Made by a program: the position numbers and the translations under genes. The notes under the pieces were generated by a model. It searched no databases. It was not told the origin of the DNA and saw only the letters and a program-made list of their open reading frames with translations. DNA of 49,863 bases from Candidatus Bathyarchaeota archaeon JdFR-07 (GTDB lineage Archaea > Thermoproteota > Bathyarchaeia > Bathyarchaeales > Bathycorpusculaceae), in the NCBI GenBank assembly GCA_002010975.1, contig MTLU01000001.1:1-49863 (forward strand). The letters run 5' to 3'. Position 1 is the first letter of the stretch. Each line of letters opens with the position of its first letter. Below, in pieces: positions 27,701-29,622 of this stretch.

Positions 27701-28270
27701 TTGAAAAATGCAGCTGTTGTAATTATCGACATGCTTAACGACTTTGTTACTGGCGATTTAAAATGTGAAAGGGCTCAACACATAATTCCTAATCTCAAAA
27801 AGCTAATTGAAGCTGCCCGCAAACATAGCATTCCAGTAATCTACAGTAACGATGCCCATTACCCACAGGACATTGAAGTTGTTCGTAAATGGGGAAAACA
27901 CGCCATAAAAGGAACAAAAGGAGCAGAAGTAATCCCAGAACTAAAACCCACAGAAAAAGATTTCATCGTTGAAAAACGGACATACAGCGGCTTCTACGAT
28001 ACTGGACTAGACTCTTTACTAAGAAGCCTATACAAGGGCGAAGGCGTAAAAACCGTGATTTTAGGCGGACTACATACTCATATATGTGTCAGACATACTG
28101 CTGCAGACGCCTTTTTCCGAGGATACAGAATAATAATCGCAAAAGACGGTGTTGAAACCTTCAGACAAGAAGATCACGAGCAGGGATTGAAATATTTAGA
28201 AAATGTTTACGACGCAAAATTAATGACTGTAGACGAAATCATAGAAGAAATGGGCACAAAACCGCGTTAG
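27701..28270 (+). CDS. Isochorismatase-family cysteine hydrolase
   Basis: The 189-residue protein has the nicotinamidase/isochorismatase triad: Asp in VIIDMLNDFVTGDL (residues 7-20), Lys in DFIVEKRTYSGFYDTGL and Cys in ILGGLHTHICVRHTAADAFFRGYRIIIAKDGVETF. Length and motif order fit nicotinamidase-like enzymes of NAD salvage; the Asp-His metal pair is suggested by SNDAHYP. I keep the family name because substrates in this group vary. The first codon is TTG with GGAGG about 9 bases upstream (TCTGGAGGGGTGCTATTTTG). The gene overlaps the next acetyltransferase gene by 1 base (TAGTG). Confidence 0.92.
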   Translation: MKNAAVVIIDMLNDFVTGDLKCERAQHIIPNLKKLIEAARKHSIPVIYSNDAHYPQDIEVVRKWGKHAIKGTKGAEVIPELKPTEKDFIVEKRTYSGFYDTGLDSLLRSLYKGEGVKTVILGGLHTHICVRHTAADAFFRGYRIIIAKDGVETFRQEDHEQGLKYLENVYDAKLMTVDEIIEEMGTKPR

Positions 28271-29076
28271 TGCCTAAAATGCAGCAGAAAGTAAGAATCG
28301 AAAATCTCTCAAACTCAAACATAGAAGACTTAATCTACGTCTGCTCTTCAAAAAGGCTAGATGACCCAATCCATCAACAAGGAATCAAATTGAAAAAACA
28401 ATGGCTTTGTACTATGCTCGAAAAATATGGACCGTGCGCTAAAATCGCATTTTTCAATGAGAAACCTGTCGCCCAAATCCTTTACTATCCGGAAGAAGCA
28501 GACATAACCAAACCATACACACGAAAAAACGTTCTCATAATAAGCTGCATATACAATCCAACGATTGAGGCTCAGAAAAAAGGAATAGGCACCAAACTCT
28601 TGCATAGCCTAATCCAAGACGCGAAACACAGAAAAACATGTCTGGGCAATAAACCATGCAATTTCCTTGTCGCAAGGGCCTTTAACACCGGCGAATTTTT
28701 CCCAATGCCAGAGTTTTACAAGAAAAATGGTTTTATTCCTACACCCGAGGGAGACATGCTTTACCTACCCATAGAAGGAAACTACGAGTCTCTACCTTCG
28801 ATAGGAAGTTATGAGCCTTTACCCGAAGATAAAAACAAAGCAATAATTTTTTATGGGTCTTCCTGCCAATTCGGTTATCCTTTCGCAAAAAAGATAGAGA
28901 AACTAATAAAAGAAGTAGCACCCCACATCAAAATCGAAATAATAAACGAGTGGGAAAAACCACAAGAATCCATAAAACGCAAAAAATCATGGCTAATAGT
29001 AAACGCCAAACCCATACATACTTTCTTTATGCAAACAGAGAAATTCAAGGAAGAAATAAGACAGGCAATAGGCTAA
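28270..29076 (+). CDS. GNAT-family N-acetyltransferase with C-terminal extension
   Basis: The first about 150 residues are a GNAT acetyltransferase: IENLSNSNIEDLIYVCSSKR, KIAFFNEKPVAQILYYPEE, IISCIYNPTIEAQKKGIGTKLLHSLIQDAKHRK, which has the acetyl-CoA loop (QKKGIGT in place of Q/RxxGxG/A), then FFPMPEFYKKNGFIPTPEGDMLYLPI. The last about 95 residues contain IIFYGSSCQFGYPFAKKIEKLIKEVAPHIKIEIINEWEKP, which looks like a thioredoxin-like sulfur/thiol domain with a single Cys. This two-part build occurs in some archaeal and clostridial GNAT proteins of unknown substrate. The GTG start shares a base with the previous stop; an ATG at 28279 is an alternative. Confidence 0.83.
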   Translation: MPKMQQKVRIENLSNSNIEDLIYVCSSKRLDDPIHQQGIKLKKQWLCTMLEKYGPCAKIAFFNEKPVAQILYYPEEADITKPYTRKNVLIISCIYNPTIEAQKKGIGTKLLHSLIQDAKHRKTCLGNKPCNFLVARAFNTGEFFPMPEFYKKNGFIPTPEGDMLYLPIEGNYESLPSIGSYEPLPEDKNKAIIFYGSSCQFGYPFAKKIEKLIKEVAPHIKIEIINEWEKPQESIKRKKSWLIVNAKPIHTFFMQTEKFKEEIRQAIG

Positions 29077-29134
29077 AACCGCTAAAAAACTCCTATTTTC
29101 ACATTTTTTCAGAGGTTAAATTTAAACTTAAAGG

Positions 29135-29150
29135 AAAAGTTTAAAAGCAA
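29135..29150 (+). promoter_or_regulatory. Promoter of the candidate hairpin RNA
   Basis: AAAAGTTTAAAAGC (29137-29150) reads as a purine-rich BRE followed by a TATA box TTTAAAAG. The expected start site 25 bases downstream is near 29168, immediately before the long hairpin at 29171. No ORF starts within the next 300 bases on this strand, so the promoter appears to serve an RNA gene. Computed from spacing rules only. Confidence 0.45.
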
Positions 29151-29167
29151 CATGTTATCCATTAGTG

Positions 29168-29269
29168 AAGAATGTGTGAGGAGAATGGTGGGTTAAATTT
29201 TCTCCCTTCTCTCCTTTCTCCCCTCGTAAACGTATCCGCCATTCTCCTCACGAACATTTTTGCTTTTTT
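29168..29269 (+). ncRNA. Candidate structured non-coding RNA (long hairpin with pyrimidine loop)
   Basis: Between the acetyltransferase gene and the tRNA lies a 21-base-pair hairpin. AATGT-GTGAGGAGAATGG-TGG (29171-29191) pairs with CCG-CCATTCTCCTCAC-GA-ACATT (29236-29258), including 13 perfect consecutive pairs, with only a two-base bulge (GA). The 44-base loop is strongly pyrimidine-rich (TCTCCCTTCTCTCC...). A TATA-like promoter sits about 25 bases before the hairpin and T5 and T6 tracts follow it directly, which fits archaeal termination. No coding potential is seen. The loop could pair with purine-rich Shine-Dalgarno sequences, but no target is demonstrated. It does not match box C/D, H/ACA, SRP or RNase P RNA. 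Confidence 0.6.
29257..29269 (+). terminator. Oligo-T terminator after the hairpin RNA
   Basis: TTTTTGCTTTTTT directly follows the base of the hairpin. T-tracts of five or more are the main archaeal termination signal, so this marks a likely 3' end of the candidate RNA. Confidence 0.5.
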
Positions 29270-29428
29270 ACTACTTATAGCTTATGGAAAAATCTTCTAT
29301 GTTTCTTGTTAAGGAAATTCTAACATTTTATCTCTCAAATGCCGAATTCTCAATGGTGTATTAAGCTATTTAATGTTGAAAAAGATTTACAAAAAATAGC
29401 TGTAAAAAGCAATTAAATAATACGGTAA

Positions 29429-29503
29429 TGGGCCCGGCCGGATTTGAACCGGCGACCAACAGGTTATGAGCCTGTCGCTCTAACCTAGCTGAGCTACGGG
29501 CCC
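29429..29503 (-). tRNA. tRNA with CAT anticodon (elongator Met or Ile2)
   Basis: On the minus strand acceptor GGGCCCG pairs with CGGGCCC, the anticodon stem ACAGG/CCTGT encloses CTCATAA (anticodon CAT), and the T arm is GCCGG-TTCAAAT-CCGGC. The discriminator is A. CCA is not encoded, unlike the other three tRNAs in the window. The acceptor rules out an initiator. GGGCCCG acceptors occur in archaeal isoleucine tRNAs as well as methionine, so it may be the agmatidine-modified tRNA-Ile2. Confidence 0.93.
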
Positions 29504-29622
29504 CTTTCAGATACGTTCAATTAATATGCTATTCAAAGTTTTAATTTAAACGTTTTCTGCTCTATTTATGGAAAATTTTAAAGGCCATTCTCGGTCTAAT
29601 AACTGGTTTTGAGGAGAAATCT

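Follow-up and report, generated by a model that had tools for sequence, protein, structure and literature searches.

Locus and architecture of the RNA

The window analysed here, a stretch of 49,863 nucleotides, is contig C5 of a 64.6%-complete archaeal genome of 0.9 Mb (G000). Between a GNAT-type acetyltransferase gene (28270–29076) and an opposite-strand tRNA-Met gene (29429–29503), which is followed by a thioredoxin/glutaredoxin-like gene, it contains a hairpin which, judging from sequence conservation, is a non-coding RNA gene conserved in Bathyarchaeia, an abundant archaeal lineage of sediments. The relatives bearing this RNA are listed in public records as Candidatus Bathyarchaeota/Bathyarchaeia, and the genomes compared are metagenome-assembled or draft, going by their records.

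Table 1. Features of the RNA gene, in window coordinates
Feature	Position	Strand	Evidence and remarks
TATA element TTTAAA	29140–29145	+	Putative own promoter of the RNA; purine-rich GGAAAAG immediately upstream; kept in nearly all aligned orthologs
Non-coding RNA, ~135 nt	29168–29301	+	Match to covariance model R1 (29172–29301), covariation, fold z −5.4
Main-stem 5' arm GUGAGGAGAAUGGUGGG, purine-rich	29176–29192	+	17-pair helix with 29235–29251
Single-stranded loop with UUUUCUCCCUUCUCUCCUUUCUCCCCUC	29193–29234	+	Invariant columns in alignment A1; unpaired in the fold
Loop core UCUCCUUUCUCC	29210–29221	+	Recurs on unrelated stems elsewhere
Main-stem 3' arm UCCGCCAUUCUCCUCAC	29235–29251	+	Pairs with 29176–29192
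Variable linker containing T tracts	29252–29272	+	Lowest conservation in the alignment
3' element ACUUAUAGCUURUGGAANAAUCUUCUAU	29273–29300	+	Conserved in A1; small 6-bp hairpin at 29284–29300

A sequence-only reading of this DNA had proposed a hairpin with its own promoter and terminator. The hairpin is real, as its inverted repeat arms (29176–29191 and 29236–29251, 44 nt apart) are 94% complementary and the interval 29135–29269 folds at −38.5 kcal/mol against −21.1 ± 3.5 kcal/mol in dinucleotide shuffles (z −5.0), none of 200 shuffles being as good; the z score of −5.4 belongs to the revised interval 29168–29305. The TATA-like element was likewise correctly recognised, since TTTAAA is conserved across orthologs. 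Almost every copy at this locus has TTTAAA, or in two genomes CTTAAA, 62–75 nt upstream of the loop core, a near-constant distance as would be expected of an archaeal promoter. The description of the loop as almost pure pyrimidine holds for an uninterrupted run of ~28 nt, but not for the two loop ends, where A and G occur.

The proposed end of the transcript has to be revised. The oligo-T tracts taken for a terminator exist (29255–29269), but the alignment is at its most variable there and the conserved element at 29273–29300 comes after them, so that they are unlikely to mark the 3' end. A terminator scan found none, and four or more T residues follow the 3' hairpin in only 9 of 32 copies, so that no conserved terminator was found. 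Conservation and the covariance match therefore replace the supposed ~100 bases by an RNA of probably ~135 nt, extending roughly from 29168 to 29301 or beyond, where the start is placed 25–30 nt past the TATA element and the end is set by conservation.

Two observations concern the thioredoxin-like gene. Over 18 nt, the 3' stem arm of the RNA (29242–29259) and the leader of this gene (29601–29618) show 78% complementarity, and the start of the gene is the second best loop-pairing start within the window.

Orthologs, covariation and distribution

As found by BLAST, homologs occur at the same locus in many genera of one Bathyarchaeia family, where the conserved block spans ~29105–29300 and a tRNA-Met gene is nearby in many genomes. 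Alignment A1, which comprises 19 orthologs and was not fitted to a covariance model, reveals a constant pyrimidine loop, compensatory changes in the stem and a previously unreported 3' element; 95.2% of its cells at paired positions are paired, as compared with 92.8% in shuffles, and 7 pairs are changed on both sides. In the wider alignment A4 (47 members, paralogs included), both partners are changed in 19 of 23 pairs; such cells number 85, whereas shuffles give 20.2 ± 4.6 and slid versions no more than 22. These counts lean towards the structure because A4 was fitted to the model. In the same alignment, 15 of the 17 main-stem pairs have both partners changed in one sequence or more, as do 4 of the 6 pairs of the 3' hairpin (29284–29300), where 91.7% of cells are paired. 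The covariation search suggested by the sequence-only reading thus yields covarying, syntenic homologs.

Covariance model R1 matches 29 genomes at E ≤ 1e-10, all within the order, while a second model, R2, matches 72 of the 257 genomes of the class at E ≤ 5e-4, again all in the same order. In a scan of 84,980 species, each represented by one genome, the pattern formed by the loop and the 3' element matches Bathyarchaeia records, with one further match each in an uncultured archaeon and a bacterial record. The latter, a Bacteriovoracaceae record (L124), is an apparent chance match to the pattern, and the covariance model does not recover it. The sequence-only reading had recognised no common archaeal RNA class here, and no Rfam 15 family matches at the gathering threshold, the window and the paralog loci giving only tRNAs, and a permissive Rfam scan returns only chance matches to microRNA precursors, far under threshold.

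A common loop core and its complement

Other loci, of which the same genome has at least three, carry the loop core UCUCCYUUCUCC on stems unrelated to this one, and at least five unrelated stems bear the same core. The loop is far more constant than the stems and is common to unrelated stems within the same genomes; paralogs of other types share the loop and not the stem, and have differing neighbour genes. Type 1 is located between tRNA-Thr(GGT) and tRNA-Leu(TAG) (L097, at C19:5262–5370 of the same genome, L108 and L114). In eight genomes, the core of type 2 (UUGGGUGGAAAGGUUUGGAGA...) lies 64–95 nt past a same-strand gene for a Vps4/CdvC-like AAA ATPase with an MIT domain (L175, L188, L197, which is C25:4091 of the same genome, L226, L228, L236, L243 and L259). 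Type 3 has a conserved ORF on one side and, on the other, a small ORF plus cysS. Type 4 belongs to another family of the order, has the stems AUGGUUGGGAA...UUCCCAACCAU, and in six genomes of that family there are 6–12 loop cores per genome as against about one for the control. Several further copies lie within ~1 kb of tRNA genes (Ala, Lys, Pro, His), by impression more often than tRNA density would give.

Two candidate partners of the loop were rejected. A purine-loop RNA (TTTCCGTCATCGAGGAGAAAGGAGAAGG..., nine genomes), considered as a kissing partner, was dropped because it is the complementary strand of another pyrimidine-loop hairpin, with a TATA element on that strand, and a triplex between loop and stem does not fit the order of the letters.

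The complement of the loop core, GGAGAARGGAGA, has 82 sites in ten genomes. The reversed control 12-mer has 18, and a 12-mer of matched composition that resembles a Shine-Dalgarno sequence equally well has 8, the matched comparison resting on this one control and all counts on whole-genome pattern searches and fetched stretches. The 75 distinct GGAGAARGGAGA sites comprise 39 hairpins read on the other strand, 20 start-proximal sites (no more than 15 nt ahead of a start codon), 6 sites in long ORFs and 10 others, several of which are cysS-type hairpins that missed the cut-off; the matched control has 3 start-proximal sites. These counts suggest an excess of complementary sites at translation starts, which supports the earlier proposal, put forward together with a scan for target sites, that the loop is complementary to Shine-Dalgarno regions. 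The start-proximal sites include tfb and proteins with signal-peptide-like starts, and a conserved protein of 63–65 residues (MTESYGWLFVDFIPLLYEKRRVARQLQVETWLDLTQLLNELK..., MTESYGWLFVD...; L176, L179 and L233), for which no Pfam match was found, also has a GGAGAARGGAGA leader.

In the genome containing the window, GGAGAAAGGAGA stands upstream of the tfb start (C15), separated from it by 8 nt, and overlaps the end of gar1. The leader 12-mer lies 7–10 nt upstream of the start and is exact in 10 of the 20 RNA-bearing genomes of the family (13 with at most one mismatch) and in 7 of 9 genomes of a second, hairpin-rich family (8 with at most one mismatch). It is found in none of the 12 genomes of the RNA-free clade, all of which have 3–5 mismatches, while one subclade (G015, G027, G036, G119 and G127) keeps the RNA yet has 2–3 mismatches in the tfb leader. 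As a single clade, with 99% support in the TFB protein tree, holds the RNA-free genomes, the correlation amounts to a single coincident event and not to repeated evidence, and the joint absence of RNA and 12-mer is no more than suggestive. The gar1 gene ends inside the tfb leader (L262, which is C15:22303–22800 of the same genome; L366 and orthologs), and its reading frame through the 12-mer and purine stretch differs between genomes; protein coding is therefore not what preserves the 12-mer. The pairing energy of the loop with its own tfb leader (−26.5 kcal/mol) is not exceptional, since it is reached by 35 of 500 loops shuffled without change of composition. The tfb matches in three related genomes, G048, G057 and G067 (L290, L291), are reported with one in-frame TAG, which may lie upstream of the true start.

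Proposed function, alternatives and known systems

The best reading, for and against which the chances are about evenly balanced, is a family of anti-Shine-Dalgarno sRNAs acting in trans on ribosome-binding sites. It is favoured because the loop seems to be what does the work and because sites complementary to it appear enriched at translation starts. In this mechanism, an independently transcribed small RNA would consist of a long rigid stem, which presents a pyrimidine loop of ~28 nt built from UCUCC repeats, and of a small hairpin 3' of it, and would be one member of a family of hairpins with unrelated stems and a common loop core. The loop would base-pair in trans with purine-rich ribosome-binding sites (GGAGAAAGGAGA) and would block ribosome loading, the mRNA of tfb (general transcription factor B) being the strongest candidate for a target, with those of exported proteins next in line. 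The sequences show conservation, covariation, the sharing of the loop and the lack of an Rfam match, whereas it is inferred only that the RNA is transcribed, pairs in the cell and represses its targets. The leader sites themselves need no sRNA, as GGAGAAAGGAGA is itself simply a strong Shine-Dalgarno sequence. Rather doubtful is the broader proposal of an RNA regulon in one Bathyarchaeia order, in which many hairpins, perhaps of differing origins, would converge on the UCUCCYUUCUCC loop and, matched by GGAGAAAGGAGA leaders, would control synthesis of TFB and of exported proteins.

The constancy of the loop could also be explained without any complementary target, if UCUCCYUUCUCC bound an RNA-binding protein and the RNA were a decoy or scaffold, titrating, in the manner of CsrB/RsmZ, a protein which also binds similar hairpins in mRNA leaders. 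A nearly invariant repeat of a short motif on many unrelated stems would suit such a protein, as would the leader-like position of the type 3 hairpin; however, the apparent excess of complementary sequences at translation starts is left unexplained and no candidate protein was identified. This alternative is a real rival, though rather unlikely. Less probable still is a cis-acting leader or processing element of neighbour genes, such as the flavodoxin gene which in several genomes starts ~170–240 nt past the RNA start on the same strand. Types 2 and 3, which respectively follow the ATPase gene and precede the small ORF and cysS, would be compatible with a role of this kind, but in the window the RNA is followed by an opposite-strand tRNA gene and is conserved nonetheless, and the neighbours change from one paralog to another. 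A remnant of a mobile element, namely a MITE-like inverted repeat, is very improbable, even though the inverted repeat is flanked by AT-rich DNA and related hairpins occur several times per genome. Several near-identical dispersed copies would be expected of a MITE, whereas the element is single-copy at the DNA level in its own genome, so that the repeat or mobile relic which the sequence-only reading had named as a possible outcome was not found; synteny is stable across genera, the stem changes are compensatory, paralogs of other types have only the loop in common, and the pattern of loop and 3' element has no match in 2.9 million viral contigs.

The Bathyarchaeia hairpin with the UCUCCYUUCUCC loop is thus probably a previously undescribed small-RNA gene, which may have a role as a translation regulator. 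No published small regulatory RNA from Bathyarchaeia was found in the mostly open-access literature covered. Sequence alone suffices to name targets, given how little the loop varies and how readily its complement can be searched for. If tfb is controlled in this way, an archaeon would have its core transcription machinery tied to small RNAs, and a parallel to the rhizobial anti-Shine-Dalgarno loop RNAs would exist in another domain of life.

Among archaeal sRNAs, loop 2 of sRNA154 from Methanosarcina mazei holds an anti-ribosome-binding-site sequence (PMC5867862), while sRNA162 of the same species masks the ribosome-binding site of a transcription-factor mRNA, acts through an unstructured linker and not a loop, and has homologs reported only in Methanosarcina (PMC3510493). 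The Bathyarchaeia RNA resembles both in being archaeal and intergenic; those two are trans-acting, while pairing in trans is here a proposal. The structures differ, sRNA162 using its linker where a loop is proposed here. The rhizobial 'cuckoo' RNAs with a CCUCCUCCC loop (SmelA075/SmelA099) combine a constant anti-Shine-Dalgarno pyrimidine loop motif with variable stems, and are poorly captured by one covariance model because the stems diverge (PMC3927594). The Bathyarchaeia RNA has the same combination of a constant, anti-Shine-Dalgarno-like loop on variable stems and the same poor capture by a single model. However, CCUCCUCCC is absent from the A1 loops, the window and the aligned loops carrying UCUCCCUUCUCUCCUUUCUCCCC. 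The rhizobial RNAs are bacterial, with three or four hairpins each, whereas this RNA is archaeal, with a 17-bp stem, a single large loop made of UCUCC repeats and a hairpin conserved on the 3' side. It is thus best read as probably working like the rhizobial CCUCCUCCC-loop sRNAs while not being a member of their group, a likeness for which no homology is claimed.
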